Part shown: piece after piece, positions 19,973 to 62,814 of the stretch
How the letters are laid out: every line of letters starts with the position of its first letter
Position numbering within the stretch: position 1 is the first letter of the stretch
Origin: Acidobacteriota bacterium
GTDB taxonomy: Bacteria > Acidobacteriota > Thermoanaerobaculia > Multivoradales > Multivoraceae
Length of the DNA: 64,000 nt
Assembly: GCA_029263415.1 (NCBI GenBank)
Contig: JAJCXN010000026.1
Span: 62,001 to 126,000, forward strand
Direction: 5' to 3'
The notes under the pieces: model-generated
Told to the model about the DNA's origin: nothing
Seen by the model: only the letters and a program-made list of their open reading frames with translations
Database searches by the model: none
Program-made: the position numbers and the translations under genes

Positions 19973-21817
19973 TTGAGCCAATACGCCTTCGATCCAACGG
20001 GCTATGAAGAAGATCTAAACTGCATCTTCGCAGCCATTGCTGAACACGACGACCTTGAGCCGTCGCGGTTGAAGGAGATTCTGCGCCGCTATCCCAAGGA
20101 CGGCAGCGGGTTCTTCTCCAAGAGCCAGCTCATTCAGGGCTACCGAGCTTTGAAGACCGATCAGCAATGGAGCGCGGACGACGAGACCTTCCTCGCTAAG
20201 GTGCGCATGAAACCGGTCAGGACCCAGAGTGGGGTGGCGCCGGTGACGGTGTTGACCAAACCATTTCCGTGCCCGGGCAAGTGCATCTTCTGTCCCAGTG
20301 ACGTGCGCATGCCAAAGAGCTACCTCTCAGACGAACCTGGCGCTCAGCGCGCGGCCGAGCACCAGTTCGATCCCTATCGACAGATGCTGTCGCGGTTGCT
20401 GTCGTTTGATAACACTGGGCATCGGGTCGACAAGATCGAGCTGATCATTCTTGGTGGCACCTGGTCGTTCTATCCTGAGGAGTACCAGATCTGGTTCATC
20501 AAGCGTTGCTTCGACGCCATGAACGACTATGCCAGCGGTCAGCGCGAGTTGGGCGAGCTAGCCTGCGATATCGACTATCGAACGCTCGAAGAAACGCTCC
20601 ACGGGGCCACGTTGGATCGACGCTACAACCGAGTGGTGAAGGAGTTCGTCGAACTGGAACGAAATCGCGACACAGCAGCTCCGTTGAGCGACGGAGAATC
20701 AGCGACCTGGCAAGAGCTCGAGGCAGTTCAGCTGAGGAATGAGATTGAAGCGGTGAGGTGTGTAGGTCTTGTAGTGGAGACCCGTCCCGATCGCATCGAT
20801 GCGCAAGAGGTGCTTCGCATCAGGCGCCTGGGTGCCACCAAGGTTCAGATCGGCTTCCAGAGTCTCAGCGACGATGTGCTCGCCAAGAACAATCGCGGTC
20901 ACACGGTGGCAGCCACGCGGCGCGCAGTAGATCTGTTGCGGCAGGCGGGTTTCAAGATCCACGCTCATTGGATGCCCAACTTGTATGGAGCGACACCGCA
21001 GTCGGATCTAGAGGACTTTGAACGGCTTTGGAGTGATCCTGACTTTCGACCGGACGAACTCAAGATCTACCCGTGCTCCTTGATCGAGAGCGCTGAGTTG
21101 ATGGCCTACTACCAGGATGGTCGGTGGCGTCCGTACACCGAGGAGGAGCTGGCCGAACTGTTGGTGGGCTGCTTGGAGCGAATGCCGCCTTACTGCAGGG
21201 TGACCCGCATGATCCGCGACATTCCGGGGACCGACATCGTTGTTGGCAACAAGGTCACCAACTTTCGCCAAGTGGTTGAGCAAGAAACCGTTCGCCGGGG
21301 CATCCGGGTGCGCGACATTCGCAGCCGTGAGATCGGCCAGGACGTTTTTGCTCCAGAGAGTCTCGTGCTGGATGAACAATGGTACGAGTCGGCGTCCGCG
21401 CAACAGGTCTTTCTTCAGTTCATTGGTCGGAGCACCTCGGCCGAGGATCAACGCGCGGACCGGCTCGCAGGATTCCTCCGCTTACAACTGCCGAAGGAAT
21501 CGGTGTCGGGGGCCACCGAAGCCCTCACTCAGGAACTAGAGGACTGCGCGATCATTCGCGAGGTGCACGTCTATGGCCAGGTGGTTGGGCTTGGAGGTCG
21601 CCTGGCAGGCAAATCACAGCACGCCGGCCTGGGCACACGGTTGATTGAGCGCGCGATGGAACTTGCCTCTGAGACCGGTTGCCGCTCGGTGGCTGTGATC
21701 TCTTCGGTTGGGACTCGCGAGTATTACCGGAAGCTGGGCTTCGTTGACGGCGACTTGTATCAGCATCGGACGGTTGACGTTGCGTTGATTGAAAGTCAGA
21801 GACTGATACGAATGTAG
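19973..21817 (+). CDS. elp3: Elp3-type tRNA uridine(34) 5-carboxymethylaminomethyl-modifying enzyme
   Basis: A 614-residue radical SAM/acetyltransferase fusion. The radical-SAM cysteines are C100-x3-C104-x2-C107 (CPGKCIFC), followed by the Elp3 pattern SYLSDEPGAQRA and QFDPYRQM. The KIELIILGGTWSFYP and VRCVGLVVETRPDRI segments are also typical. The C-terminal GNAT domain shows GLGTRLIERA (acetyl-CoA loop) and SSVGTREYYRKLGF. Elp3 adds a carboxymethyl group to wobble uridine of tRNA. The start is a TTG at 19973 because no ATG lies before the conserved N-terminal helices. Length is slightly above eukaryotic/archaeal Elp3 (about 550 residues). No Elongator partners are nearby, as usual in bacteria. 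Confidence 0.93.
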   Translation: MSQYAFDPTGYEEDLNCIFAAIAEHDDLEPSRLKEILRRYPKDGSGFFSKSQLIQGYRALKTDQQWSADDETFLAKVRMKPVRTQSGVAPVTVLTKPFPCPGKCIFCPSDVRMPKSYLSDEPGAQRAAEHQFDPYRQMLSRLLSFDNTGHRVDKIELIILGGTWSFYPEEYQIWFIKRCFDAMNDYASGQRELGELACDIDYRTLEETLHGATLDRRYNRVVKEFVELERNRDTAAPLSDGESATWQELEAVQLRNEIEAVRCVGLVVETRPDRIDAQEVLRIRRLGATKVQIGFQSLSDDVLAKNNRGHTVAATRRAVDLLRQAGFKIHAHWMPNLYGATPQSDLEDFERLWSDPDFRPDELKIYPCSLIESAELMAYYQDGRWRPYTEEELAELLVGCLERMPPYCRVTRMIRDIPGTDIVVGNKVTNFRQVVEQETVRRGIRVRDIRSREIGQDVFAPESLVLDEQWYESASAQQVFLQFIGRSTSAEDQRADRLAGFLRLQLPKESVSGATEALTQELEDCAIIREVHVYGQVVGLGGRLAGKSQHAGLGTRLIERAMELASETGCRSVAVISSVGTREYYRKLGFVDGDLYQHRTVDVALIESQRLIRM

Positions 21818-22042: not shown

Positions 22043-23281
22043 ATGAAGATTCTGCACACCTCAGACTGGCATGTTGATCTCCACGCGGCGCAGCTCGCTG
22101 ATGCGGCTTCCACTGTTCGGGCGGCTCGATGGAATGCTGTTGAGCGGTTGGTACAGATCGCTGAGGAGAACGATGTCGACTTGGTGCTGGTCGCTGGCGA
22201 CACCTTCGACACGATTGACGCGGACGACGCGACGGTGGCTAGGGTGGTCGGTCTGCTGAACCGCTTTGCACCTGCGCGCGTGGTGGTGCTGCCCGGGAAC
22301 CACGATCCGCTCGTCACTGGGGGAGTGTGGGATCGTACGGCATGGTCTTCGCTCAACGAGCATGTGATTCTCGCCACGAGCGCTGGGCCGCTTGAGTTTT
22401 TGACCCGAGATCAAGTGGCGGTCACCATCTACCCTTGCCCGATTCAACAGAAGCAAAGCCGCCTTGATCCGACCGACGACATCCCAGTGCGCGCAGCGAA
22501 CGATCAGCGCCTACGCATTGGGCTTGCCCACGGTTCGCTCGACGCTTTGCACGTCGCCGAGAACTTTCCGATCGCTCAAGCACGTGCTGCCCTGACTGGG
22601 CTGGACTACCTTGCTCTGGGTGATTGGCATGGCCAACGGATCTTCTCGGGCTGCACCGCCTACAGCGGAACCCCCGAAGCGACGTCGTTCGGCGAGCGGA
22701 GGACCGGGCTCGCGTTGCTGGTCCATCTCGATGACTCTCGGGCTACGACGGCGCGGATCGAGCCGATCCGCGTTGGACAATGCGCCTGGCTACAGAGCGA
22801 GGTCGAGCTGCGTGACTTGACCGACCTAGCGGAACTCGAAGCCGATCTCCTGGGACTTGGGGCAGCTGAACATGCGTTGGTGCGATTACAAGTGAAGCTG
22901 GTCCAAGACGCGGTCGCAGACGCGCCAGACGGCGCTGACGGCAGCAACGGCGCGTCCGGACAAGAAATGCAAACCAGCCTTCTCGGAACTCTGGCCCCAG
23001 TCGAGGATTTCGGTGAGCACGCGACCTTCGTGGATGCGGTCGAAGCGTTTCGTACGAAGTGGCAAGAGCGCCTGCTCTATCTCGATTGGCGGCTCTCCGA
23101 ACTCTCGGTTAGTTCCAGCGATCTTCCCAGGTCCTTGAACGAGATCGATGCACCGCTCAAGGCTGCGCTGGAGGGTGGGGAGCTCGATGGCGCGTTGCTC
23201 GATCTGTCAGATCTCGATCCTGCTGTGCTGATCGAAGCACGGTGGCAGCTACGCACGTTGGCCTCGCAGACTGCATCGTGA
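22043..23281 (+). CDS. SbcD/Mre11-like metallophosphoesterase (DNA repair exonuclease)
   Basis: A 412-residue calcineurin-like phosphoesterase. It carries D8-x-H10 in ILHTSDWHVD, LVLVAGDTFDTIDADD, VVVLPGNHDPL and a late GDWHG motif, which are the phosphoesterase motifs of SbcD/Mre11 nucleases. The C-terminal half (about 255-400) is Glu/Leu-rich, as expected for the capping and Rad50-binding region. The next gene, 16 bp downstream, encodes a Rad50/SbcC-like ATPase, so the two are almost certainly a complex that processes DNA ends. The start ATG at 22043 has no strong ribosome-binding site. Confidence 0.9.
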   Translation: MKILHTSDWHVDLHAAQLADAASTVRAARWNAVERLVQIAEENDVDLVLVAGDTFDTIDADDATVARVVGLLNRFAPARVVVLPGNHDPLVTGGVWDRTAWSSLNEHVILATSAGPLEFLTRDQVAVTIYPCPIQQKQSRLDPTDDIPVRAANDQRLRIGLAHGSLDALHVAENFPIAQARAALTGLDYLALGDWHGQRIFSGCTAYSGTPEATSFGERRTGLALLVHLDDSRATTARIEPIRVGQCAWLQSEVELRDLTDLAELEADLLGLGAAEHALVRLQVKLVQDAVADAPDGADGSNGASGQEMQTSLLGTLAPVEDFGEHATFVDAVEAFRTKWQERLLYLDWRLSELSVSSSDLPRSLNEIDAPLKAALEGGELDGALLDLSDLDPAVLIEARWQLRTLASQTAS

Positions 23282-23297
23282 GCGCGAGCAAACGCCG

Positions 23298-26096
23298 ATG
23301 ATTCTTGAGCAGGTCAGCTTGCGCAACTGGCGCGCCTATCGCGGCGACGGTCATACTTTCGCGTTCGGTGATCACGCCAACTTACTGGTGGGCCCGAACG
23401 AGTCCGGCAAGTCGAGCGTGCTCGAAGCGGTGCGGCGCGGATTGTTGGATCGACACACGGCGCGGGGCAAGGACATCCTCGCCGTACGCCCTTTGGGCAG
23501 CAGTCTTGGGCCTGAAGTTCGCCTGGTATTCAGAGCCAACGACGGAGAGGGTCGTGAGCGCCGGTATACGTCGCTCAAGCGGTTCTTGGACAACGCGGCC
23601 GCCGAGGTGCGCGTCGAACGGGACGGAGAGTTTCAGCTCGATCATGAAGGCGACGCCGCCGATCGTTTCTTGCGTGCGCTGGTTGGTGCTGATGACGCCA
23701 CCCGTGGGACGCTCAAGCCCGAGCAACGTGGGCTTGCGCAGGCGCTCTGGTTCTTGCAGCGAGAGGAGGGCATTCCAAACGGGCGGTGGAACGACGCACT
23801 TGAGACCAATCTCAAGGATCGCTTCAGTGCGGAGTCGGTCGAGCCAAACAGAGCGCGGGCGTCTGGAATTCGATCCTTGCTTAGTGCAGCCTCCAGTTCC
23901 GCTCAAGCAGAGGCGGTCGAGGAACGGGTGAACATCCTGTTTGACGGGCACTTCACCCCGACCGGTCGGATCAAGACGAAGAGTGAACTCGCGATCCTGA
24001 CGTCAACCATCGAGTCGCTCAAGCAAGAACTCGAGCAGCGCAATTCTGAACGCGATCGGGCTGCCCTCCATCGCGAGGAGCTGGGCCAGATCGAGCAAGA
24101 GGATCGGTCTTTGGTGGACTTGCTCGCCGACTGCGAAGCGCAGCGCAAGCAGCTGACTGAGTCCTTGCAGATTGAGCCTGAGCTCACCGCCGGCCTGAAC
24201 GACCTGGAGCGCCGGACCGAGGCAGCTCGCCGACGTTGCGCCGAGACAAGCGCCCGGCGTCAGTCGGTCGCCGTGCTCGATCAGCGGATCCAGGAGCTGG
24301 ACGAGACACTCCGCGACGGCGAGGAAGCGCTGGCGCGCCTACGGATCGCGGTGCGCGAACATCGACGTAGCGCTGAAAGACACGCGCGGTCATGGGAAGA
24401 CGAGCTCTCGCCCAAGCTGGAAGCTGTCCGTCAGGGCATTGCCGACCTTCAAGCGAAACAACGAATCGAGCAGCTCGAGATCGACGTCCAGCGACTTGAC
24501 GAGCAGCTCGAACGACGCCGCACGTTGAGCAAGGAAGTCGCCGAAGCAAAGGCCCGATTGTCGAGCGTAGTGATCGTTGATGAGGCCTCGTGGGATCGCG
24601 TTCGTTCGCTGAGCGAGCGCGCGGCGGTGCTGCGAGATCGGGTTTGGGCAGCTGGAATGCGGGTTCAGGCCAGTGAGCTACCGGCTGGCACCCTGACCTT
24701 TGATCCAGAGCCTGAGGTTGATACGGCAAACAATGAGCTGGTGATCGCGCAGGAAACCGTTGTCGGCATCGAAGGTGTGGGTTCTTTCACCTTGCGCAGC
24801 GCAGACGAGCGGCTTGCCGCCTTCGATGTAGAAGCTAGGGCGTGTCGAGCTGAGCTCAGCCTGGTGCTCGAAAGATTCGGAGCTAGCGACGAGGCAGCAC
24901 TCTTGATACTGCGTGAACGGAGTGTGCAGATGGAACGTGAGCTCGAAAGGGCTCAAGATTTGTTGGCGGCGATCGCTGAAGGCGAGGATCAAGAGAATCT
25001 GACTGCTCGTCGAGCAGCGACGGCGACCGAGCTTCAAGAACTCCGTGAACGTTGTCCGCAGTCGGTCCTTCCGGGAATGGAGGGCTGGGCAGAGCAGCGT
25101 ACCCAGGATGAGCTGGCCGAACTTCAGGAGAAGGCACAATCGTTGGAGCGCACCATTCGCGAGGAGCGCGAGGCCGAGCAAGAGGCTCAACAGAAGAGCC
25201 TAGAAGCCCATGAGCGTTTGGCAGCGGTGTCGGCCAGCGCGGCAGCGGGCAACAGCGAGCGCAGCGCTTTGCGCGAGCGACTGGCGTCCGAACTCGAGGC
25301 CTTTGTCGATCGTGCAGCTTTCGAGCTGGCCGCAGCCACGGCGTTGCGCGAAGCCGAGGAACTCGATCAGAAGAGCTCGGCGCTTCGCCAGCGCTTCGCT
25401 GCAGAGGTGAAGACGCCTCGTAAGCAACTGCAGCGCATCGAGATCAAGATTTCCAGAACGGAAGAACGACATCAACAGCTGGCTGCTCGGCGGACTGATC
25501 GGCGGGCCCGTCTCGAGGAGGCAGGCGCCTTGTCCCTCGATCGACAGATTGCAGAACTTGAAACCCGGCTAGCGTCCGCTGAGCAACGGTTCGAGACCGT
25601 TCACCGTCGAGCGCAAGCAATCGCGGTGCTCAGGCGTTTGTTCGGCCATCGGCGGGAGGCACAGTCGCACTCATGGGTCGAACCCGTGAGCCAACTGGTC
25701 GAAAGCTGGTTGGTGCGGTTAAGCGAAGGCCGGGCAGTGGGAGTGAGTTTCGATACCGATTTGGTGCCCCAAGGCGTAGCACTCGACGGTCATGAGGAGT
25801 CGCTTCCGTTTGCGAGCCTTAGCCACGGTGCACGAGAGCAGCTGGTTGTTCTATTGCGCCTGGCTCTCGGTGTTGTGCTTAGCCAACACACCTGCCAACT
25901 GGTGGTGTTGGACGATCGGTTGGTCAACGCGGATAGCACTCGCTCGATCGTGATGAGTGAGATCATCAACGAAGCGGCGCGCAGTTGCCAGGTGTTGGTC
26001 GCGACCTGTAGGCCGGAAGCGTATGAGACGGTTGTTGGCAAGCGCATCGATGTCGCTCGACGCGGCGGCTTCCTGGCTGCGGCCGAAGCGCACTAG
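23298..26096 (+). CDS. SbcC/Rad50-like AAA ATPase without zinc hook
   Basis: A 932-residue SMC-like ATPase. The N-terminal Walker A is GPNESGKSS (residues 32-40) after ISLRNWRAYRG-like sequence. Long coiled coils cover about 200-450 and 560-790. The C-terminal lobe has the ABC signature LSHGAREQLVVLLRLAL and Walker B LVVLDDRLVNAD. There is no CxxC zinc hook. Instead, around residues 465-510, a short beta-rich segment (GTLTFDPEPEV, VVGIEGVGSFTLR) sits between the coils. The Walker B ends in DD where many Rad50 proteins have DE. Partner of the preceding phosphoesterase; presumed DNA-end processing or structure-specific nuclease complex. Confidence 0.88.
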   Translation: MILEQVSLRNWRAYRGDGHTFAFGDHANLLVGPNESGKSSVLEAVRRGLLDRHTARGKDILAVRPLGSSLGPEVRLVFRANDGEGRERRYTSLKRFLDNAAAEVRVERDGEFQLDHEGDAADRFLRALVGADDATRGTLKPEQRGLAQALWFLQREEGIPNGRWNDALETNLKDRFSAESVEPNRARASGIRSLLSAASSSAQAEAVEERVNILFDGHFTPTGRIKTKSELAILTSTIESLKQELEQRNSERDRAALHREELGQIEQEDRSLVDLLADCEAQRKQLTESLQIEPELTAGLNDLERRTEAARRRCAETSARRQSVAVLDQRIQELDETLRDGEEALARLRIAVREHRRSAERHARSWEDELSPKLEAVRQGIADLQAKQRIEQLEIDVQRLDEQLERRRTLSKEVAEAKARLSSVVIVDEASWDRVRSLSERAAVLRDRVWAAGMRVQASELPAGTLTFDPEPEVDTANNELVIAQETVVGIEGVGSFTLRSADERLAAFDVEARACRAELSLVLERFGASDEAALLILRERSVQMERELERAQDLLAAIAEGEDQENLTARRAATATELQELRERCPQSVLPGMEGWAEQRTQDELAELQEKAQSLERTIREEREAEQEAQQKSLEAHERLAAVSASAAAGNSERSALRERLASELEAFVDRAAFELAAATALREAEELDQKSSALRQRFAAEVKTPRKQLQRIEIKISRTEERHQQLAARRTDRRARLEEAGALSLDRQIAELETRLASAEQRFETVHRRAQAIAVLRRLFGHRREAQSHSWVEPVSQLVESWLVRLSEGRAVGVSFDTDLVPQGVALDGHEESLPFASLSHGAREQLVVLLRLALGVVLSQHTCQLVVLDDRLVNADSTRSIVMSEIINEAARSCQVLVATCRPEAYETVVGKRIDVARRGGFLAAAEAH

Positions 26097-31103: not shown

Positions 31104-32399
31104 ATGTTGCACGCCCCCCGGATCTGCTGCCTCGACCTAGACACCTTCTTTGTTTCGGTTGAGCGGCTGTTCGATCCCTCTTTGATTGGCAAACCGGTGG
31201 TTGTTGGAGGGAAGCCTGGGTCGCGCGGAGTTGTCACTGCTTGCAGCTACGAAGTGCGCGAGTACGGAGTGCACTCTGGCATGTCGCTCACCGAGGCTGG
31301 CAAGCGCGTGCCAGACGCCATCTTTCTGCCGGTGCGCAGCGAGACCTACGGTGAGTATTCAAAGCAGGTGCGGGCCATCGTGGATCGCTATTCGCCGGTG
31401 GTTCAGGCTGCGAGCATCGACGAGATGTTTATCGACTTCAGCGGCTGTGAGCGCATGTATCGCCGCCGCGGAGATTTCGGCGCCGACGCGACGGTTCTGC
31501 GAACCGTTCGCGAAATGCGAGCCGCGATCAGCGATGAACTCGGCTTGCCCGCCTCGGTGGGGATTGCGACCAGCAGATCGATGGCCAAGGTCGCGAGCGG
31601 ATTGGCGAAGCCCGCCGGGGTCTTGCTGGTCTCCGCTGGAACCGAGGCGAAGACGCTTGCCCCGCTGCCGGTGAGAAAGTTGCCCGGCATCGGGCCCGTA
31701 GCGGCGGAAAAGCTCAAGGGACTCGGTATTGATCGGCTTGGCCAGATCGCTGAGGCGTCGATCGACGAACTGCGGCGGGTCTTCGGCGCGTGGGCTACTC
31801 AGGTGCTTGAGGGTTCCCAAGGCCGTGGTTCTTCAGACATTAGTCGCGATCAACCCGCGTTTCGCGAGCACGACGCAACTGGTGACACGGTGCGCAGTAT
31901 TTCTAATGAACGCACCTTCCGTGAAGATGTGTCGGATCCATTGATTGTGGAGTCACAGCTGTGCCACTTGTGCGAGCGAGTTTGCTGGCGTGCTCGCAGG
32001 CGCGGCGTCTTGGCCCGCACGATTTCGTTGAAGCTTCGATACTCGAACTTCAAGACGTTGTCGCGATCGCGCACGATCCTGCCGACCGCGTCGGAGTTTG
32101 AGGTCTACCCACTGATCAAGGAACTCTACGATCTCGCGCGAGATCGACCGATGCCGATCAGGCTGCTTGGAGTCTCTTTCACAAATCTCGTGCGAGCCGA
32201 GCAGCAACTCGCATTGTTCGAGCACGATTCTGCGCTCATTCGGTCGGTGGATGCAATTCGCCAGCGCTACGGATTCGATGCGGTGCGTCGTGCGACCGGC
32301 CAGATCGCACGGCGCAAGGCGCCGTCGGTGGTCGGTGAGGCTGGTGATGCAGGTGCCGGTGGAGGTGTCCGCGAAGGTGGAGATGGCCCCCGCTCGTGA
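31104..32399 (+). CDS. dinB: DNA polymerase IV (Y-family)
   Basis: A 431-residue translesion polymerase. Catalytic acidic residues are visible in D11-x-D13 (CLDLDTFFVSVE) and D106-E107 (SIDEMFIDF). VVGGKPGSRGVVTACSYEVR is the nucleotide-binding finger region, and GIATSRSMAKVAS plus KLPGIGPVAAEKLKGLG (helix-hairpin-helix) are in the expected order. A QLALF motif near residue 372 fits the beta-clamp binding pentapeptide. Length is above the usual 350-residue Pol IV because of a disordered Gly/Ala-rich tail. Head of a run of plus-strand DNA-repair genes. Confidence 0.93.
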   Translation: MLHAPRICCLDLDTFFVSVERLFDPSLIGKPVVVGGKPGSRGVVTACSYEVREYGVHSGMSLTEAGKRVPDAIFLPVRSETYGEYSKQVRAIVDRYSPVVQAASIDEMFIDFSGCERMYRRRGDFGADATVLRTVREMRAAISDELGLPASVGIATSRSMAKVASGLAKPAGVLLVSAGTEAKTLAPLPVRKLPGIGPVAAEKLKGLGIDRLGQIAEASIDELRRVFGAWATQVLEGSQGRGSSDISRDQPAFREHDATGDTVRSISNERTFREDVSDPLIVESQLCHLCERVCWRARRRGVLARTISLKLRYSNFKTLSRSRTILPTASEFEVYPLIKELYDLARDRPMPIRLLGVSFTNLVRAEQQLALFEHDSALIRSVDAIRQRYGFDAVRRATGQIARRKAPSVVGEAGDAGAGGGVREGGDGPRS

Positions 32400-32501
32400 A
32401 GCAAGCAACTCCGATAGGCAGCTCAGATCCAGATTCTTCAGCCCAGAATGCTGACGCCGGTTAGGCTGCTCGCTTGGAACGAGACGATGAACTAATGGGC
32501 C

Positions 32502-32930
32502 ATGGAGGTGTTAGTGGCGGCCGAAAGAACGGGTGCAGGCGAGGCTGATCGGCAGGGAACACCTGACGGCACTCACGACGGCGTGGGAAGCAGCTCAGCC
32601 GACGTCAGCGGGGCTCTTCATCAGCCGGGCCTCCAACTACCGGACCATGGTGTCGGTTTCGGTCGAGCGCACGGACTCCCTCTCGATCTGGGATTTGAGG
32701 CTGACGACCTTGAATCATTGCTGCGCTACCGGATGCCGTTTGGTCGGTACAGCGGCCGTGCTTTGATCGACTTACCGGAAGAGTACCTCCTTTGGTTTGA
32801 GCGTGAGGAGTTTCCAACTGGAGAGCTGGGTCGTCTGATGAAGCTCACCCTGGGGATCAAACGCTACGGAGCGGAGGATGTTGTCAAAGGGTTGCGTGGG
32901 CCCCGCGGCAACAGGAACGTCGATGGCTAA
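32502..32930 (+). CDS. DUF3820 family protein
   Basis: The C-terminal 70 residues (MPFGRYSGRALIDLPEEYL, LWFEREEFPTGELGRLM, LGIKRYG) match the compact DUF3820 domain. The N-terminal 77 residues are low-complexity (Gly/Asp/Ser-rich) and may not be translated; the true start may be nearer 32700. The stop overlaps the start of the next gene by 8 bp. DUF3820 proteins are small, of unknown biochemical function, and often sit next to nuclease or helicase genes. Confidence 0.75.
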   Translation: MEVLVAAERTGAGEADRQGTPDGTHDGVGSSSADVSGALHQPGLQLPDHGVGFGRAHGLPLDLGFEADDLESLLRYRMPFGRYSGRALIDLPEEYLLWFEREEFPTGELGRLMKLTLGIKRYGAEDVVKGLRGPRGNRNVDG

Positions 32931-35900
32931 GCGCAGCGAGGAACCTCCAGCTCAAGGTTCGCTGTGGTCGACTGTCGCTGAACCGGTCGAAAACGCTGCC
33001 GCAGGTCAGGACACAACAACCAGTGCCGAGGAGGCCGCTGATCTAGATGAGCGGGCATCTGTTGAAAACCCGGAAGCTGCTGAAACACTCAGCGCTGAAG
33101 AATCGCCCGCTCCGATCTGGCTCGAAGGCGAGATTGGCGCAGGCACCGACGACAGCAGTTCAGAATGGGTTCCACGGCGGCATTTTCTAGGCTGGGGCGA
33201 GCCGTTGGTTCGGAGTGCTACAGAATGGCTGTTCGAGCATGCCCTGGACTCAGGTGCGGAGTTCGGGTTTGCCGATGTACTGATTGTGGTGCCCGGCCGA
33301 CGTTCGGGGCGCAAGTTACTCGAGCACCTGGTGAAGGCAGCACGGAGCCGCGGGCGACTCGCAATGTCGCTGCCGGAGATCACCACGCCAGGTTCTCTAC
33401 CAGAACGATTCTTGGATCCGGGTCAGCTGGTGTTGGCGGATGCGCCGAGCCGAGCGCTGCTCGCTGATGCGCTACGACGATCAGCTCAGCGGGCCGAGCG
33501 ACGCTTCACCGTCGAGGAAGCCTTGGGAGAGTTGCCGGACGCTGAGGATCTGGTGGCTTGGTTAGAGCTTGCCCAGCGCCTAGAGGCCGTGCGCAATGAA
33601 CTCGGTACCCTGGGTATCGGCATCGGTGCAGCGCGTACGCGTCTTCAGCAACATCTTGATCAGTTGGACGACGAGAGCGCCCGTTGGAGTGCGTTGGCTC
33701 AGGTCGATCGGTGGCTGGTGGCAGACCTGTTGAGTGCAGGTGGCACCACCCGTTCGAGCGGACGGATGGAGGCCTTGCGACGTCAGTCGAGCGTGGATTT
33801 GGCATCGCCGCGGCGGGTGGTTCTGGTCGGTCTCGCCGAGTTCTCGGTGCTGTTTCGCCGCGTTCTGCAGCTGGGGGCTGGGTGCGGGGTCGAGGTTCTG
33901 GTTAACGCGCCAAAGAGCGAGTGTGAGCGGTTCGATCGGTGGGGCACGCCGCTTGCGGCACGCTGGTCCACCCGGTCGGGGCCACTGGTGGAGGCGATGC
34001 GACAGACGTCGAACTCGAATGGCTTGCAGCAGTTGGCTCAGACAGTGGTGCAGCGACCAGCTGATCAGGTGGCCTCGGTCTTGAGCACGATCGAGCGCTG
34101 GGGGCGTACCGGAGGCGATAGTGGCGATAGCAGCGGCGTCAATGGCGGTGCCTTCCGCGACCGGACCACTCCACCGAGCGAGATCACGGTTGGCGTCGGC
34201 GAAGAGACGTCAGCGCAGCGCCTGCTCGAAGCATTCAAGACCCGAGGCATCCCGGGACATTCGCCCTTCGGCGTTCGCCTGCGTCAGTGCGAACCGGTCC
34301 TTGCTCTAAGGCGCCTGTCTCGATTCGGAAGTGACCGCAATCTGCGCAGTCTTTATGACGCCCTGATGGTTCCAGTGATCGCCAGATGGGTCGATCACCG
34401 CCTAGACAACTCGGTGGCAGAGATCGATGGGCGACATTTGCAAGATCAGTCACTCAAGGTCGCCTGGACCAACCGGGATTGGGTGAGCTTGGTAGAGCGA
34501 GCCATCGAGATGAGGCTCGGCGGCGAGCCAGCCCACATCGCCGATTCGCAGGATTCTTCTGGCGTCGCTGCGGCTCTGGATCAGAGCTTAGCTGCAATCA
34601 GCGATGCTGCTCTCGACGTGTTTGACGCGACTGATCGCCCCATGCGGTTGAACGACTGCGCATCGGGACTCCTGATCGGTTTGAGGCGGCTCTATCTGCC
34701 CCCAGACCACGCTTCGATGGGGGACACCCGTGACGGAGCGCGAGTTGGCGATGCTGGGGGGGAGGCGCTTGAGGACGCGGGTGGACTGGAGAACCCGGAG
34801 GGCCTAGACCGCACAGCGGCCCTTGACCACTCGCGGGCGCTCGACGATACCGAGGCGCATGACGACACAGGACCCCTTGAACACGTAGGAGAGGGCCCGT
34901 CGCTAACCGCTCACGAGCTGGAGCAGCGTGCTCTGGTGCGCCGAGCGCTTGAGCGCTGTGTCGAGGTTCTGCAGGAGGCTAGTTCGCTCGGTGCGACCGT
35001 GGTGGACTTGCCCGAGATGCGGTTGGATGACGCTTGTTCGGTGCTGTTCTTCGAACGTGGTGAACGATTGTCCGGAGACAAAAGCGCGCAAGGGAAGACG
35101 CTCGAGGTGATCGGCTGGCTCGAATTGGCGTTGGACGACTCTTCGGTTGTGATTGTCACGGATCTGAACGAGGGATCGATTCCTGCTCGAGGTGGCTCAG
35201 ATCCGTTGCTGCCGGAGTCCACTCGATCGGTGTTGGGCCTCAACGGTGACCAAGCCAGGCTGGCGCGCGACGCGTTCCTGTTGACCGCTTTGCTAAACAG
35301 CAGGCGTCGGGTTCTACTGTCCAGCTGCCAGCAAACCGAACTGGGTGAACCCCTCTTGCCGTCGAGACTCTTGTTGACGGGCGAGGGTGCGGAGCTAGCG
35401 GCGCGAGTAACAAACGCATTCGGTCAGGCAGCTGAGGCAGCTGAGGCAGAGGAGAGATCGAATGAGCTGGGTTCGCAACTATGGTTGACGGGTGGGCTAG
35501 TTCACATGAGCCCAGGGAGCCCGGGGAGCCCAGTGGGCCCGGAGGACTCGGGAAATTTTGCGCCAAGAGAGCCAGACCGTGAGGCACTGCTCTCGTCGTC
35601 AGAGTTTCAGTCAAGAATCCGTCGGCTTCGGGTGACCGATTTCAAGGCCTACCTTGCATGCCCGTATCGCTTCTTTCTGCGACGCATTCTGCGAGTGAGA
35701 CCTGCACCGGTATGGGGAAGTGAACTCGATCCTGGCCGGTTCGGGACCCTGGTGCACGAGGTTCTGCGTCAGTTCGGGACGCGTCCCGAGTCACGCTTGG
35801 AGGAGGCTGCTCATATAGCCGACTGCCTGTCGGTGTTGACCGACCGAGTGCTCCTGGGCGAGTTCGGCCCGGCATTGCCTACGCCAGCCCGGATTCAGAT

Positions 35901-36597
35901 CGAACACCTGCGTCGACGGTTCGAGCGATTCTCGAAATGGCACGCCTTCAACAACGCGGCCGGTTGGCGGATGGAGCAGGAGCTCGCCGAACGGGAGCTG
36001 CGCTTCGAACTCCAGGTGGATGGAGAACCGGTAGAGATCGTTGGTCGGATCGATCGAGTGGATCGCCACCCTGAGCTAGGCCTTCGGCTGCTCGACTACA
36101 AGACTAGCGATAGCCCCGCTGATCCCAAGAACAGCATCAAGACCGAGATCACTGGCGACGGAGAGGGTGGAACCACCCGGACCAAGCGTTGGGTGGACTT
36201 CCAACTGCCGCTCTATCGCGAACTTGCCAGGAGGCATCCGGAACTGTTTGATGCGCAGCTACCCATCGAGACGGGCTTCGTCCGGTTGTCGAAGAAGCTC
36301 AGAGCTCGGAGCTTAAGTGTCGGCGATTGGACTGAGCACGACTTCGGTGGCGCCCTTGAAGATGCTCGCGAAGTCGTGCGGTCGATTCGTCGAGCAGTGT
36401 TCTGGCCACCTGCGCTGCCTCCCAAGTTCGCAGACGGCCTCGAGTGGGTGGCCGGAGACACCTTGCCGCTGCTTGGAACGACCGCTGTCGAGGTTAACCC
36501 CGGCTACGACGGAGGGGGCGGAGCTGGCAGAGCTGGCAGAGCTGGCAGAGGTGGTGCAGATACCGCCGTCAACTCAGACGGTGAGGCGACGACGTGA
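32923..36597 (+). CDS. AddB-like PD-(D/E)XK nuclease family protein
   Basis: A 1224-residue protein. The N-terminal half is helicase-like but degenerate (DVLIVVPGRRSGRKLLEHL). The C-terminal nuclease domain contains VTDFKAYLACPYRFFLRR, the histidine motif FGTLVHEVL, and VGRIDRVD..LRLLDYKTS with the catalytic D...DYK residues of RecB/AddAB nucleases. The extra C-terminal cysteines that hold the [4Fe-4S] staple in Bacillus AddB are absent. A low-complexity acidic insert lies near residues 600-665 and a Gly/Ala/Arg-rich tail at the end. ATG 32923 has an AGGAAC upstream. Overlaps the addA-like gene by 4 bp. Confidence 0.85.
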   Translation: MAKRSEEPPAQGSLWSTVAEPVENAAAGQDTTTSAEEAADLDERASVENPEAAETLSAEESPAPIWLEGEIGAGTDDSSSEWVPRRHFLGWGEPLVRSATEWLFEHALDSGAEFGFADVLIVVPGRRSGRKLLEHLVKAARSRGRLAMSLPEITTPGSLPERFLDPGQLVLADAPSRALLADALRRSAQRAERRFTVEEALGELPDAEDLVAWLELAQRLEAVRNELGTLGIGIGAARTRLQQHLDQLDDESARWSALAQVDRWLVADLLSAGGTTRSSGRMEALRRQSSVDLASPRRVVLVGLAEFSVLFRRVLQLGAGCGVEVLVNAPKSECERFDRWGTPLAARWSTRSGPLVEAMRQTSNSNGLQQLAQTVVQRPADQVASVLSTIERWGRTGGDSGDSSGVNGGAFRDRTTPPSEITVGVGEETSAQRLLEAFKTRGIPGHSPFGVRLRQCEPVLALRRLSRFGSDRNLRSLYDALMVPVIARWVDHRLDNSVAEIDGRHLQDQSLKVAWTNRDWVSLVERAIEMRLGGEPAHIADSQDSSGVAAALDQSLAAISDAALDVFDATDRPMRLNDCASGLLIGLRRLYLPPDHASMGDTRDGARVGDAGGEALEDAGGLENPEGLDRTAALDHSRALDDTEAHDDTGPLEHVGEGPSLTAHELEQRALVRRALERCVEVLQEASSLGATVVDLPEMRLDDACSVLFFERGERLSGDKSAQGKTLEVIGWLELALDDSSVVIVTDLNEGSIPARGGSDPLLPESTRSVLGLNGDQARLARDAFLLTALLNSRRRVLLSSCQQTELGEPLLPSRLLLTGEGAELAARVTNAFGQAAEAAEAEERSNELGSQLWLTGGLVHMSPGSPGSPVGPEDSGNFAPREPDREALLSSSEFQSRIRRLRVTDFKAYLACPYRFFLRRILRVRPAPVWGSELDPGRFGTLVHEVLRQFGTRPESRLEEAAHIADCLSVLTDRVLLGEFGPALPTPARIQIEHLRRRFERFSKWHAFNNAAGWRMEQELAERELRFELQVDGEPVEIVGRIDRVDRHPELGLRLLDYKTSDSPADPKNSIKTEITGDGEGGTTRTKRWVDFQLPLYRELARRHPELFDAQLPIETGFVRLSKKLRARSLSVGDWTEHDFGGALEDAREVVRSIRRAVFWPPALPPKFADGLEWVAGDTLPLLGTTAVEVNPGYDGGGGAGRAGRAGRGGADTAVNSDGEATT
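36523..36549. repeat. Three 9-bp tandem repeats encoding Ala-Gly-Arg
   Basis: GCTGGCAGA is repeated exactly three times near the end of the AddB-like gene, giving the AGRAGRAGR tail. It is an in-frame microsatellite in a probably disordered C terminus. Confidence 0.8.
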
Positions 36598-39500
36598 CGC
36601 CTGGGTCCCCACAGCTTCAGCATCGACTACTCAAGGCAGATGCGGGCACCGGCAAGACCTACAATCTCACCGTCCAGTTCCTGAAGCTGCTGGCGGCTGG
36701 TACCGAGCCTAAGCGAGTTCTGGCGACGACCTTCACACGCAAGGCTGCGGGCGAGATCTTGCAGCGGATCCTGATGCGGGTTGCTGCAGCGTCGTTGAAC
36801 GCGACTGAGGCGCTAGAACTGAGTTCCGATCTGGGACGCGGTGGCCAGCGGGAGGCGGCAAGGGATCAAGAGCACTACCGCAAGTGGCTGGGCGAGTTGG
36901 TCGACGATCTTCCGCAACTGTCGGTCGGCACACTCGACGCGTTCTTCCGACGACTGGTGAGTGGTTTTCGCTACGAGCTCGGACTCGTGCGCATGCAACA
37001 GATCGTAGCGCTCAACGATCCGCTGGTTGAGAACCTGCGGGAGCGTGCGGTCCGCAGCACGCTTGATCGACTCGCTGGCGGTGAAGAGCCGTTGAGCGCA
37101 CTGACCATGCGTCTATACCGCGGACAAGCGCAGCGATCGGTGACTTGGGCTGTTGACCGGGTCTTCTTGGAACTCTATGAGGTCTATCGAGAGTCTCCCG
37201 ACCTTCGCGTCTGGTCCCAGATCGAAGTGCCACAAGGCCTGTTAGGCGAAGAACGGTTCGTCGATGCCTTGTCTGCGTTCTGGTCGGAGTGGAGGGACGA
37301 GTTTGAGACCAACCGGAGTGCTGCCGAGCTACGGTTGGGCAAGCGAGTCATCAAGGGGTTACGTCAAAGCGATGCCTTACTCGAAGAGCGCGACTGGAAA
37401 TCTTTGCTGGAGAGCGGCCTCGGTGAGAAGGTCGATCGGGCATTGCTCGCGGGAGAGGAGTCGTGCCAGTACTACAGCAAAGCCTTGCCAGCTGTCTTGT
37501 TTGCACGCTACGTTCCTTTGATCCGCCACGCGCGTGCTGCCTTGCTGAGTGATCTGCACGAACAGACGGTGGCGACCCACCGCCTACTCCAGTGCTTTCA
37601 CGAGGAGTTCAGTCGCCTTCGCAGGCGCGAGGGAGTGGTCCTATTTAGCGATCTGGCTGACCTGATTGCTCGTGAGCTGCCAGCGCTCGAGGGTGACCAC
37701 GAGCAGGCACTAGCGTACCGGCTCGATGGGCAGATCGAGCACGTGCTGCTGGACGAGTTTCAAGACACATCGACGGTGCAGTGGAGCGCCCTGCGCTTGC
37801 TGGTCGACGAGGTGCTGGCTTACGGAGATGGCAGTCGGACACTGTTCTGCGTCGGCGATCCCAAGCAGTCGATCTACGGTTGGCGGGGCGGCCGGCCGGA
37901 GCTGTTTGGTGTGGTCGAGGGGCAACTAGCAGAAATGGTCGAAAGCGGCGCGGCCTTGGTTGAACCACTCGATCTGAGTTACAGGACCAGTCCTGTGGTT
38001 CTTGACGCAGTCAATCGTGTCTTCGCGTCGGTCGAGGGTAACCAGTTCCTAAAGGAAACCACCGCAGACAATGGCACCAAGCGCAAGGCGGCGTTGGTCT
38101 GGGCTGAGGATTTCGAACCCCATCGCGCTGCTGCTCCTCGGCTCGGCGACGCTGGTTACGTTGTTCTGCGAACCTCGTTGTCTTGGGAGGGCATGTTCGA
38201 TGCCGACGATGAGGTAGAGCTTGATTCGGAAGGAACGCTGAGCGAAGAACAGCCGCTCGGCCATCTCGGCTATGCGGCCGAACGAATCCAAGAGATCGTT
38301 GAGCGTCGAGGGGGCGCCAGCATCGGTGTGCTCACTCGGAGCAACCGGGTTGTGAGCGAGACCTTGTTTGCTCTTCGTAGGTTGGGCGTCGTTGCCAGCG
38401 GTGAGGGACAGGGGAGGATTGTCGATGATCCAGCCGTCACCGCCGTGATCTCGGCGTTCAGACTAGCGGCGTCTCCTTCTGACACGGCATCCTTGGTGCA
38501 TTGCGCTGGCAGTTCGCTCGGCGAGTTGTTGGCGGTGGCGCCAAAGCTTCGACAGCTGCCGCAAGCGGAGGCCGAGCTGCAGGCTGCTGCGCGCTCGGTG
38601 TCGTTGAAGGTCAGAGATCAGATTCTTCAGGACGGCGCCTGCGCTGTCCTTGCCGGTTGGTGTCGCATGCTGGCGCCGACTTTGAGTGCCCGATCGAGAG
38701 CGCGGGTTCAGCAACTTTTGGAGGTGTTGATCGATCAGCAGGAGATGCTTGATCGTCGCCCGCGCGAGTTGGTGAGGTTCCTCACCCAGGTGACGGTCAC
38801 CGAACCTGCGCCGGCCGCGGTCAGGGTAATGACGGTTCATCAAGCGAAGGGTCTTGAGTTCGATGTGGTGGTGTTGTGCGAACTCGAGACACAGTTGGGA
38901 GCCTTGTATGGGCCGCTGGTCGAGACCCTGCGAGATACCGCTATAGCCTCGCCAACGGCGGTGTTTCGCGCGAGCAACCGACCGACTCGTCGCAGTGATT
39001 CGCAGTTGCGAGCGGCGCACGCTCAAGAGATTGAGCGTCGCATGCGCGACGACTTAGGTGCCGCATACGTGGCCCTCACGCGAGCGCGTTCGGAACTGCA
39101 CATGATCGTCCAGCCGGTGTCTGCCGCTCCGGGCAAACGTAAGCCGATCGAGAACTTCGCACTTGCTGGTTTCCTACGCGGTGCGCTGTCCGACGCAGAG
39201 TCCATGGCAAGCAAGGGTGTCGGAAACACCGTCCTCTTTGAAGTTGGGCAGCCGATCGAGGGCGAGATCGAGAGCGGTCGTCTCACGGACCAGGACGATG
39301 GTCGCCCAAAGCCAGTCCGGAGCGCGGTGGTTGCCGAGCGTAATGGCCATCGGTCTACGGAACGGTCTGCGGAGCTGTCTGCCGAATCGCCTGGGCAATC
39401 GGTTGGGGAGTCGCCTGGGGCATCGGGCGCCGCGTCTCGAGTGGCTCAATCACGGGTCAGTCCGAGCCAGTTCGGTGTGCATCGCCACGCAAATGATCCT

Positions 39501-40058
39501 CTGGATTCAGACCGCCTCGACTCGCTCTTGCAGGAGCAGTCCTTGGGGGTTCTGCGGGGCAGGATCTTACACGCCTATCTGGCCGAGATTGAGTGGCTAC
39601 CTAAGCGAGAGGCGGTACTCGAGCAGGCGGTGCTCGATCGGGTCAATCGGAAGATTGCGCCGGGCCAGGATGTCGCGTGGCTGGAGCGAATCCGAAGCGA
39701 TTTCGAACGCATGATGCGGACTGACGACATCCGAGAGGTGCTGCGAAAACCTGAGGCGGTGAAGGCGCGCTGCTGGCGCGAGCGCGCGTTTACTTTGATC
39801 GATGACGGTCGCAGTGACGATTCCACGCTGGTTCGAGGGGTGCTCGATCGGGTGTTGCTGGTGGAGAACACCGCCGGCGTAGTGACCTCAGCCCAGATCG
39901 TTGATTGGAAGACGGGAGCTGTTTCGGGACGCTTGGATGACTATCGGGCGCAACTGAACTCGTACCGCAAGGCTGTGGCCGCGATGACTGGTCTGATGGA
40001 GACGGCAGTCACCGCGGCGATTGTGTGGCTTGATCGCGGCGTGGTCGAACCGGTTTAG
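36594..40058 (+). CDS. AddA-like UvrD/RecB-family helicase-nuclease
   Basis: A 1154-residue superfamily 1A helicase with C-terminal nuclease. Walker A is ADAGTGKT (residues 15-22); motif Ia TTFTRKAAGEI, motif II region VLLDEFQDTS, motif III FCVGDPKQSIYGWRGG, and motif V-like MTVHQAKGLEFDVVVL are all present. The C-terminal domain shows RGRILHAYLAEIEW and VRGVLDRVL...QIVDWKTG, a PD-(D/E)XK nuclease site. Start is a GTG at 36594 overlapping the addB-like stop, so expression is coupled. Together they would form an AddAB-type complex for resection of double-strand breaks. Confidence 0.92.
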   Translation: MTPGSPQLQHRLLKADAGTGKTYNLTVQFLKLLAAGTEPKRVLATTFTRKAAGEILQRILMRVAAASLNATEALELSSDLGRGGQREAARDQEHYRKWLGELVDDLPQLSVGTLDAFFRRLVSGFRYELGLVRMQQIVALNDPLVENLRERAVRSTLDRLAGGEEPLSALTMRLYRGQAQRSVTWAVDRVFLELYEVYRESPDLRVWSQIEVPQGLLGEERFVDALSAFWSEWRDEFETNRSAAELRLGKRVIKGLRQSDALLEERDWKSLLESGLGEKVDRALLAGEESCQYYSKALPAVLFARYVPLIRHARAALLSDLHEQTVATHRLLQCFHEEFSRLRRREGVVLFSDLADLIARELPALEGDHEQALAYRLDGQIEHVLLDEFQDTSTVQWSALRLLVDEVLAYGDGSRTLFCVGDPKQSIYGWRGGRPELFGVVEGQLAEMVESGAALVEPLDLSYRTSPVVLDAVNRVFASVEGNQFLKETTADNGTKRKAALVWAEDFEPHRAAAPRLGDAGYVVLRTSLSWEGMFDADDEVELDSEGTLSEEQPLGHLGYAAERIQEIVERRGGASIGVLTRSNRVVSETLFALRRLGVVASGEGQGRIVDDPAVTAVISAFRLAASPSDTASLVHCAGSSLGELLAVAPKLRQLPQAEAELQAAARSVSLKVRDQILQDGACAVLAGWCRMLAPTLSARSRARVQQLLEVLIDQQEMLDRRPRELVRFLTQVTVTEPAPAAVRVMTVHQAKGLEFDVVVLCELETQLGALYGPLVETLRDTAIASPTAVFRASNRPTRRSDSQLRAAHAQEIERRMRDDLGAAYVALTRARSELHMIVQPVSAAPGKRKPIENFALAGFLRGALSDAESMASKGVGNTVLFEVGQPIEGEIESGRLTDQDDGRPKPVRSAVVAERNGHRSTERSAELSAESPGQSVGESPGASGAASRVAQSRVSPSQFGVHRHANDPLDSDRLDSLLQEQSLGVLRGRILHAYLAEIEWLPKREAVLEQAVLDRVNRKIAPGQDVAWLERIRSDFERMMRTDDIREVLRKPEAVKARCWRERAFTLIDDGRSDDSTLVRGVLDRVLLVENTAGVVTSAQIVDWKTGAVSGRLDDYRAQLNSYRKAVAAMTGLMETAVTAAIVWLDRGVVEPV

Positions 40059-60810: not shown

Positions 60811-62814
60811 TTACTGCTGTGCCTGCTGTTGAGTTGTTTCTGGGGCCTGCGGGAAGCCGGTGACGCCAAATTCCGCGAGTAGGGCTGGGGCGAGAGTACG
60901 CAGACTGTGCGCCGGTTGCTTGAGGGGGCGACTGGTGAACAACACCCCCGGGACGGTGCGGTGATCCATGATGTGGTCACCGGTCCAACGGGTCTCGTTG
61001 TTCGCTATGACTGGTTCGTCTCCGAGGCCGCCAACGGCGTTCTTGGACGAAGCGTGAGTCCCCTTGGCGTAGCCAACGATCAGGTCGGGTGCCATTTCGA
61101 TTCCGCCTTGGTACTCGAAGTCGGTGGTGCGAATGACCTCGGTGATCATCGCTTCACCGGTCTCGGGATGCACCGCGGCGAGAAGTTTCTCAGTGATCTC
61201 GGTGAGTAGAGCGTCCTTCTGAGCAAACGGCACGATGCCGTCACGTTCACGGCCCTTCTCGTTGATGTAGAGGCCGGAGAACCCGACTGCGTAGGCCTGA
61301 GATTGGCCCCAGTCGATGTTTGTGAAGTAGCCCTGGTCGTCCTTGCCGTAACCCCGGTCGGTGAGGTAGCCGTTCTCGCGCAGCCAGACATTGAGATTGA
61401 ACTCACGGCGCAACGAGGTGAAGCCGTGATCTGACATGACGACCAACAAGGTCTCAGGCGGCAAGGTGGCACGGGCGTGCCCGACGATCTCATCCAATTT
61501 CTCATAGAGCGATGGAACCAGATCTTCATAGGGCGCATCTTCCTCGGCGTCGTAGAACGGGTGTTCAGGATCGCGGCTGCGCCACAGAATGTGACCAGTG
61601 AGATCAGCGTTGCCGACGTAATAGAAGAGGAGGCCAGCGTCGCTCTCGACGAAGTTGTTGAGGACCCAGGGAAACTGCTCGTAGACGTCGCGACCCGCTT
61701 CTGCGGCTTGTGCTGCGAACTCTGCGGGGCCAAAGACGCCGTCGGTAATCGATTTGGTGTCTTCGGGCATGCCTTCGGTGTAGAACAGGCCGGTGGCCTC
61801 AGCGAGGTCTGCACCGAAGGAGGCGGGCGTGGTTACCGGGAAAGCCTGGTTGCGTGGGTCGACGTCAATCGGGGTGACGTAGAGCTCAAACTCAGGGTCG
61901 AGAGATCGCAGGTACATCCGCGCTATGCCACCGAGGTTGATGCCCGGCATCATGGCGAACTCGACATCTAGCCATGGTGTCCATTCGCCTACCTTGATCA
62001 CCGCCTCTTGGTCGCCCAGTTCGATTTTCACGGCATTGTTGTCCGGATCGAGGTAGACGGTGAAGTCTTGAGAGAGTTTGTCGTGCTCCTCACCCTCCAC
62101 TTCGCACTGCATCGGGTTGTCGGGGCCGTAGAGCTTCGCCTCAACGACGTTGTCATAGATGTCGAGCTCGTAGATCTCGCCACCGGTGATGTCTTCGCCA
62201 GCGAACGCGAACAGTTCCGAGGTGTAGTAAGAGTAGGTGCCCTCGGTACCGTTGAGGTCTTGTGTCCCCATCCCGGTGAGCTCGATCGAAGCCGTGCCCG
62301 AGGGCGGAAAATTGGCCGGCATACGAATGATGTGAGTTGGAACTCCGTTCTCTTCGAGGAGTTCCCAGAACGGCCTGCCGGTACGGAGCGATACATAGTC
62401 ACCGCCACCAAACGCGAAGTACTTGCCACCGATACATACTCCGAAGCCCTCTTCTCCAGTCTCAGTGGTTGAAGGGACCGGGAACATGGTCTCGGGATCG
62501 CGATGGATGAAGTCGAAGATGCCGTGGCCACCTGGATCCATGCCGGTCATGAAGCTTGACCAGGCGACCGGGCTCTGTGGAGGGATCGAGGTCTCAAGCG
62601 GCTGAAAGGTGCCTTGCTTGGCTAACTTGGAGATGTTCGGCAGTCGGCCCTCGTCCATCAGTTGGCGGGTGAGCGCCGGGTCCATTCCGTCGAAGCCGAG
62701 CACAACCACGCGCGGCCCTTCATAGGCAGCGTCACCACAGCCTGTTACGAGTGGTGCACAGGCCAATGCCGTTATTGCGATGAGCTTTGCGGCGGTTGGG
62801 GCGATACGACTCAT
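60811..62814 (-). CDS. Lipoprotein of the alkaline phosphatase / nucleotide pyrophosphatase family
   Basis: A 667-residue lipoprotein (lipobox VTGC). The type I phosphodiesterase fold shows VVVLGFDGMDPALTRQLMDE, LPNISKLAKQGTFQPL, IPPQSPVAWSSFMTGMDPGG, LTGHILWRSRDPEH, LLVVMSDHGFTSLRREFN and TGDHIMDHRTVPGVLF, giving the expected Asp/His metal ligands and a Ser/Thr nucleophile region. Substrate not predictable (nucleotide, phospholipid or phosphonate esters are all known in the family). The start ATG 62814 precedes the lipoprotein signal. A paralogue lies 38 bp upstream. Confidence 0.9.
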   Translation of the reverse strand: MSRIAPTAAKLIAITALACAPLVTGCGDAAYEGPRVVVLGFDGMDPALTRQLMDEGRLPNISKLAKQGTFQPLETSIPPQSPVAWSSFMTGMDPGGHGIFDFIHRDPETMFPVPSTTETGEEGFGVCIGGKYFAFGGGDYVSLRTGRPFWELLEENGVPTHIIRMPANFPPSGTASIELTGMGTQDLNGTEGTYSYYTSELFAFAGEDITGGEIYELDIYDNVVEAKLYGPDNPMQCEVEGEEHDKLSQDFTVYLDPDNNAVKIELGDQEAVIKVGEWTPWLDVEFAMMPGINLGGIARMYLRSLDPEFELYVTPIDVDPRNQAFPVTTPASFGADLAEATGLFYTEGMPEDTKSITDGVFGPAEFAAQAAEAGRDVYEQFPWVLNNFVESDAGLLFYYVGNADLTGHILWRSRDPEHPFYDAEEDAPYEDLVPSLYEKLDEIVGHARATLPPETLLVVMSDHGFTSLRREFNLNVWLRENGYLTDRGYGKDDQGYFTNIDWGQSQAYAVGFSGLYINEKGRERDGIVPFAQKDALLTEITEKLLAAVHPETGEAMITEVIRTTDFEYQGGIEMAPDLIVGYAKGTHASSKNAVGGLGDEPVIANNETRWTGDHIMDHRTVPGVLFTSRPLKQPAHSLRTLAPALLAEFGVTGFPQAPETTQQQAQQ

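Follow-up and report, generated by a model that had tools for sequence, protein, structure and literature searches.

A hookless Mre11-Rad50-like gene family with a predicted beta apex at the place of the zinc hook, represented in an Acidobacteriota genome

Rad50 dimerises through an element regarded as its hallmark, the zinc hook. Yeast Rad50 in which the hook has been replaced by the hinge of MukB nevertheless repairs DNA, whereas a hook mutant does not, according to the accessible part of one report (PMC6969161). Among related ATPases, the available text of PMC10586767 describes LmuB of the Lamassu system as a protein of about 650 residues with short coils and an altered Walker B Glu, replaced by Gln, and some homologues as having no zinc hook; the accessible text of PMC9389158 credits the vast majority of archaea-specific SMC-related proteins (ASRPs) with a zinc hook. 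Here we describe a gene pair at positions 22043-26096 of a stretch of 64,000 nucleotides (the window: positions 62,001 to 126,000 of contig JAJCXN010000026.1, forward strand, assembly GCA_029263415.1) from an Acidobacteriota bacterium of the Multivoraceae. All window features given below are on the + strand and are numbered from the first letter of the window. A preliminary description, made from the sequence alone, had seen here a Mre11/Rad50-like pair in which a short beta-rich segment stands where the hook would join the two coils. We find that the pair belongs to a recurrent family of two genes, which combines a phosphoesterase of GDxH type with a hookless ATPase that has a central beta domain.

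Both open reading frames and their domain matches confirm that a Mre11/Rad50-like pair lies at this place. The first gene (22043-23281) encodes a 412-residue SbcD/Mre11-like metallophosphoesterase, which scores above the cut-off for the Metallophos profile (53.3 bits, E 6.4e-14) and below that for the SbcD profile TIGR00619 (58.5 bits, cut-off 77.65); the phosphoesterase profile A5 aligns with T. maritima Mre11 over positions 2-245. After a spacer of 16 bp, the second gene (23298-26096) encodes a 932-residue Rad50/SMC-like coiled-coil ABC ATPase. This protein scores above the cut-offs for SMC_N, AAA_15, AAA_23 and AAA_29, and its top matches among sequences of solved structures are archaeal Rad50 chains. 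In its predicted full-length model, each end of a long coil bears a Rad50-type ABC head fold, and a predicted model of the head superposes on the Rad50 proteins of T. maritima (3qf7; VIA Z 27.8, 302 residues aligned, 4.9 Å) and P. furiosus (4ncj; Z 27.6, 301 residues, 3.3 Å).

A scan of named genomes with the window ATPase alone found no relative, and a query built from a seven-sequence alignment found 155, the best 80 of which were analysed as loci. These 80 span actinobacteria, proteobacteria, Planctomycetota, Acidobacteria and others, and 76 of them have an SbcD-like phosphoesterase, YhaO-like ones included. Both genes were placed in 62 of 64 family loci, with an overlap of no more than 14 bases or a gap of no more than 30 bp between them; the phosphoesterase was not placed in L047 and L064. 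The family counts that follow rest on 75 ATPase rows and 81 phosphoesterase rows, which include several close Brevibacterium rows and two duplicated genomes (L048 = G041, L058 = G026); the phosphoesterase count also holds L070 = G003 twice. Seven of the 80 loci contributed no ATPase row (L060, L070, L078, L095, L108, L109, L115), and the ATPase count excludes the YhaN-like L073, L083, L098, L106, L110, L113, L114, L121 and L107. The phosphoesterase count excludes L073, L083, L106, L110, L113, L114 and L121 and keeps L107.

The three nucleotide-binding motifs named in the preliminary description are all present in the ATPase: Walker A GPNESGKS (residues 32-39; 23391-23414), the ABC signature LSHGAREQ (residues 841-848; 25818-25841) and Walker B LVVLDD (residues 868-873; 25899-25916). 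The family alignment places an Asp of this Walker B motif at the catalytic Glu of canonical SbcC, and Cys904 (26007-26009) at the switch position that is His in canonical SbcC. Walker B reads DD in 75/75 family rows, and the switch residue is Cys in 67, Ser in 4 and Ala in 3, with one gap; the six canonical SbcC proteins with a C-terminal end have DE and a switch His, and the signature of the canonical SbcC proteins fetched is LSGGE. The seven Cys residues of the window ATPase (279, 314, 516, 586, 866, 897 and 904) form no CxxC, which rules out a canonical SbcC with an overlooked hook. Within the central fifth, CxxC is absent from every family ATPase (0/75); a single one of the 75 has the motif at any position. 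Among ten canonical loci taken for comparison, two (L206, L208) yielded no SbcC frame; CxxC is present in seven of the remaining eight frames, at 0.46-0.49 of the length in the six complete ones, and the eighth frame (L209) is a 359-residue stub at a contig end.

What, then, stands at the place of the hook? In the full-length model the first coil (residues 230-422; 23985-24563) and the second (residues 599-808; 25092-25721), each of about 200 residues, flank a small beta domain near the middle of the protein (residues 454-499; 24657-24794), which is conserved in relatives. An AlphaFold2 model of residues 386-600, built with 53 aligned relatives, consists of a helix, six short strands and a helix, with a mean pLDDT of 91.4. 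The full-length model places identical strands (454-457, 466-469, 473-475, 480-483, 487-491 and 495-499) between the coils, at a lower pLDDT of 67-79, so that the beta-rich segment first noticed in the sequence reappears as six predicted strands in both models.

A profile of this apex, trained on 54 of the 75 family rows, matches 74/75 family ATPases at a fractional position of 0.47-0.53. Twenty of the 21 rows outside the training set are matched, two of these rows being duplicates of training rows and several close kin; nine carriers fetched later gave four strong matches, two weak ones and three without a match. Neither the eight canonical SbcC frames (one of them too short for an apex) nor the 13 YhaN-like ATPases gave a match to the profile at E <1; these counts omit the second frame of L216, a stub of ABC-transporter-like type that was also scored. 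Apex identity to the window is about 10-27% among relatives, and the alignment of 54 sequences has no invariant column. We regard the predicted beta apex as better than a chance result, because in relatives of about 15-25% identity a corresponding segment lies at an equivalent relative position.

Searches with the apex model were dominated by its coils. None of 282 Foldseek matches in the PDB and none of 466 among viral structures reached E up to 0.001; the MukB hinge (3ibp) stood in the PDB list at E 0.16 in this weak, coil-dominated search, and the best VIA match, likewise dominated by coil, had Z 9.4. Pfam gave scattered matches to the apex sequences, with at most 2/54 members per family, and seven PDB sequences matched the apex profile with E values up to 1, in each case within profile positions 149-211 and away from the strands. 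Because the coils fill the model, these fold searches are weak and we therefore do not claim the apex as a new fold; within that limit, neither Foldseek nor VIA returned a confident match to a known hook or hinge, the kind of match that would have told against the original proposal.

Other forms of the ATPase were encountered. The proteins of L227, L228 and L229 (genomes G183, G153 and G212) have 1005-1008 residues, and a different insert may replace the beta apex in them; L228 is the only one of the three in which the partner motif was read, and there it is GDWH. In L107 (4780-8103; Dojkabacteria), a GDWH phosphoesterase accompanies a short ATPase of 701 residues without the beta apex, possibly an early branch.

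The partner protein differs from its canonical counterparts at the metal site. In the part of PMC4996933 available to us, the DP1 subunit of PolD is described as binding two metals through D, H, D, N, H, H and H, ligands that are remarkably conserved with P. furiosus Mre11; on our own reading of the motifs, these positions would correspond to those compared in the window phosphoesterase. Here motif I is D8-W-H10 (22064-22072), motif II supplies the metal ligand D53 (22199-22201; by homology), and motif III, N86-H87 (22298-22303), would supply a metal ligand and the proton donor, by homology and with the Mre11/DP1 roles taken from the same source. Motif IV is H163 (22529-22531), and motif V is D194-W-H196 (22622-22630). 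Residues D8, D53, N86, H87, H163 and H196 are conserved metal-site residues in the family alignment. The canonical SbcD set of D-x-H, GDxxD/E, GNHD, H and GHxH is broken at motif V, which in the window reads GDWH: an Asp takes the position of the first His in the ALGHIH of T. maritima Mre11. This Asp is present in 81/81 family rows, and GHxH is kept in 7/7 YhaO-like rows and 10/10 canonical SbcCD loci. Motif I is DxQ in 69 of the 79 family rows with letters at this position; the window protein has kept the His.

Is the pair simply a YhaN/YhaO pair, given that it had been likened to YhaN-type variants rather than to canonical SbcC? In a maximum-likelihood tree of 52 head domains, six canonical SbcC heads stand apart (100/97) from a group of 45 rows (100/96), comprising 31 family rows and 14 YhaN-like rows, L107 among the latter; the window ATPase pairs with that of G002 (100/100) on a long branch. 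The fork between family and YhaN-like rows has support of 89/89 once L107, which has a GDxH partner, joins the family. The window ATPase also carries the YhaN head motifs GPNExGKS, LSxG(T/A)xxQ and Walker B DD, the last also found in the YhaN-like proteins except for one with DE. To this extent the likeness holds, and the head is nearer to YhaN than to canonical SbcC. It does not extend to the whole pair, however. The window ATPase scores 17.4 bits against AAA_27, which we take to be the YhaN-type profile, below the cut-off of 22; its apex has no counterpart in the YhaN-like proteins scanned, and its partner has GDxH in place of the GHxH of the YhaO type. These three differences rule out a plain YhaN. 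They also count against a looser version, in which the pair is a divergent YhaON pair, presumably COG4717-type, and the beta apex a local insertion, despite the tree grouping, the Walker B DD and Walker A NE common to both, and AAA_27 matches at E up to 0.01 in 52/56 family ATPases. We consider this version improbable.

The reading that we favour, with a probability of about 0.6, is that the two genes encode a Mre11-Rad50-type complex for DNA-end processing, which would belong to a third, zinc-independent lineage related to YhaN, would have its arms joined by the beta apex, would work with RecBCD/AddAB-type resection and would replace SbcCD. The ATPase would fold back on itself, and two heads would engage around ATP and bind DNA ends together with a phosphoesterase dimer, which may nick or trim the DNA. 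The arms of two ATPase subunits would be joined at their far end by the six-strand apex, with no Zn-bound CxxC hook. The nuclease probably uses an altered metal site, with Asp for His, and since the ATPase lacks the switch His and has an Asp in place of the catalytic Glu, its ATP turnover is expected to be slow or clamp-like. Such a complex could make blocked or hairpin ends ready for resection of the RecBCD/AddAB type, and the pair would substitute for canonical SbcCD. That the dimer is bridged in a different way, as the preliminary description suggested, is plausible; an unrelated dimer domain at the place of the hook is mechanistically acceptable because the yeast exchange of hook for MukB hinge works.

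The role in repair is suggested by gene distribution and by neighbouring genes. The host genome (6.9 Mb, 99.2% complete) has the phosphoesterase of the window pair as its sole SbcD-like gene at E up to 1e-4. The idea that the host has another SbcC was rejected: of seven AAA_23 matches above the cut-off, only C19 (1405 residues) and the window ATPase lie in frames of more than 600 residues, and C19 carries SMC motifs. Carriers of the family elsewhere were recognised at a threshold of 254 bits, set from a gap in one genome set. Canonical SbcD above the cut-off is found in 0/20 named-genome carriers, and 18 of these lack any further SbcD-like match at E up to 1e-4; among 14 control genomes, 13 are SbcD-positive at E up to 1e-4 and 8 above the cut-off.

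Three sets of genomes allow co-occurrence to be compared with expectation, by p values in which kinship is not corrected for. In an order-level set (60 genomes, host included), 13 ATPase carriers, one of them (G019) with an ATPase fragment only, and 8 genomes with canonical SbcD do not overlap (p 0.12); the overlap is 0/15 (p 0.08) when G015 and G016, which count as carriers through their partner motif, are included. In the set from the host's phylum, 9 carriers and 25 canonical SbcD genomes of 197 likewise do not overlap (p 0.29). In the phylum of a Brevibacterium carrier, with 16 carriers and 81 canonical genomes of 197, two have both, against 6.6 expected (one-sided p 0.012); six genomes of this set score 142-213 bits, and if they are counted, 4/22 have both, against 9.0 expected (p 0.016). 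The GDxH pair thus tends to stand in for SbcCD, significantly in one set and suggestively in the others.

Adjacency to RecBCD- or AddAB-like genes is seen in two lineages. In G002 and G003, from the host's own family, AddB/AddA-like genes adjoin the ATPase gene, and in L103 (Burkholderiales) recB and then recD lie directly upstream of the pair, as recD does in L093 and L108. The window has such genes outside the pair, encoding an AddB-like PD-(D/E)XK protein of 1239 residues (32878-36597; AddB profile below cut-off) and an AddA/RecB-like UvrD helicase-nuclease of 1154 residues (36594-40058; AddA and RecB profiles below cut-offs).

Some further features of these neighbourhoods may be recorded. 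Positions 31104-40058 of the window form a small DNA-repair neighbourhood of three successive genes, DNA polymerase IV-like, AddB-like and AddA-like, and a bacterial Elp3 gene (radical SAM/GNAT; 19973-21817) lies directly upstream of the pair (TIGR01211, 468.6 bits, above cut-off). A YhaN/YhaO-like pair in L106 (2-6456) is directly downstream of a recB-like gene, a further RecBCD linkage. In L037 (1206-4211; G010) an SNF2-type helicase stands beside the GDxH pair, and the pair of G042 (L038) is flanked by a frame whose start is similar. No third conserved flanking gene emerged at BLAST E 1e-8 among frames of at least 100 residues, some of them antisense, where no cluster exceeded five genus-level groups; LmuA and LmuC profiles were not searched for.

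Two other explanations bear on function. The apex might bind DNA or a partner protein, rather than serve as a dimerisation module, with the complexes held together by the heads and the phosphoesterase dimer; its strong sequence divergence, with not one invariant column, speaks for this. The domain, however, occupies the site of the dimerisation element in Rad50 and SMC proteins, and it persists down to the low apex identities given above. In Rad50, moreover, hook dimerisation is essential, according to the part of PMC6969161 available. On balance we think a non-dimerising apex unlikely. The alternative of a defence system, in which a Lamassu-like nuclease-ATPase attacks phage or plasmid ends, concerns the pair as a whole. 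The partners of LmuB in Lamassu are the effector LmuA and LmuC. The patchy distribution (13/60 genomes at order level) would suit defence, as would the occurrence of relatives on plasmids of Rhizobium, Sphingopyxis, Ideonella and others; the PADLOC LmuB profile matches 56/56 ATPases scanned, with a best E of 3.6e-18, and an altered Walker B Glu is likewise reported for LmuB in the accessible text of PMC10586767. The PADLOC matches nevertheless look generic for ABC heads and coils, since most members are matched by GajA, PtuA and AriA as well. The flanks show no third gene family in more than five genus-level groups, repair genes (recBD and addBA-like) stand as neighbours, and the phosphoesterase of L055, the only one tried, has no match among phage records. 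A primary role in defence seems to us quite unlikely.

The plasmid relatives deserve a closer description. The window phosphoesterase matches 112 plasmid records at E up to 1e-10, and the four plasmid pairs inspected (three found with this protein and one with that of L055) all combine GDxH with DD. Three of the four match the apex profile at E <1e-4, and the Rhizobium pair matches it weakly, at E 0.024. In these four records the phosphoesterase is labelled 'DNA repair exonuclease' or 'exonuclease SbcCD subunit D', and the ATPase 'AAA family ATPase' or 'ATP-binding protein'. L235-L236 are GDxH pairs on Rhizobium and Sphingopyxis plasmids.

Several observations weigh against an end-processing complex that replaces SbcCD. 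The invariance of GDxH in 81/81 rows describes the family rather than tests it, because the motif was already known when family rows were divided from YhaO-like ones. The apex profile has no match in G183, G153 and G212, which have high GDxH-profile scores, in the family member G042 or in L107, and the branch with the 31 family rows alone on one side has weak support (63/49). The AddB/AddA-like genes of the window lie about 7-14 kb downstream of the pair, not directly adjacent. As to SbcCD, the cut-off for SbcD is reached by 8/14 controls, so that some canonical SbcD genes are missed; two of the three sets show no significant depletion, and exclusion is not absolute, with 2/16 carriers having both systems in one set. 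The plasmid-borne relatives would fit a mobile or defence role as well. Our confidence in the end-processing complex is no higher than stated, since the RecBCD/AddAB linkage comes from two lineages and a single set gives a significant exclusion of SbcCD. A broader proposal is more tentative, with a chance that we would put a little short of even: that the family constitutes a third class spread over several phyla, with its own zinc-free beta apex fold, a metal site remodelled by a His-to-Asp change, often with a His-to-Gln change besides, and replacement of both the catalytic Glu and the switch His, and that it has repeatedly replaced SbcCD.

No description of the GDxH/beta-apex family was found in the literature searched, a search whose reach left out most subscription literature. 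A widespread natural version of the complex that is hookless and altered in nuclease and ATPase catalytic residues offers a comparison for testing the need for the hook, for the catalytic glutamate and for the two-metal site. Annotation would be corrected, and bacteria that have no canonical SbcCD may still have such an activity.

How does the family compare with the systems already described? Identity with the ASRPs was rejected: the NCBIfam ASRP profile matches 53/56 family ATPases at E up to 0.01, a generic match common to the family, and ASRPs are mostly hooked whereas the family is hookless. LmuB is likewise a Rad50-like coiled-coil ATPase, but it has Gln where the window family has Asp, its coils are short, and the partner in the window family is an SbcD-like phosphoesterase. 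The YhaN/YhaO-like pairs are closer, sharing the lack of a central CxxC, the gene order, the neighbourhood in the tree and motifs of the GPNExGKS, LSxGTxxQ and DD types. They differ in having no matching beta apex in the 13 proteins scanned, in the GHxH of their partners (7/7) and in the switch residue, which is His in 6/8 and Cys in 2/8 YhaN-like proteins, compared with mostly Cys in the GDxH family. With canonical SbcCD/Mre11-Rad50, finally, the family has in common its gene order, its Rad50-like heads, most of its metal ligands and its antiparallel coils. In contrast to canonical SbcCD, it has a beta apex and no CxxC hook, a signature LSxG(A/T)xEQ in place of LSGGE, DD in place of DE in Walker B, a switch Cys in place of His, GDxH in place of GHxH, and a separate clade in the tree of heads.

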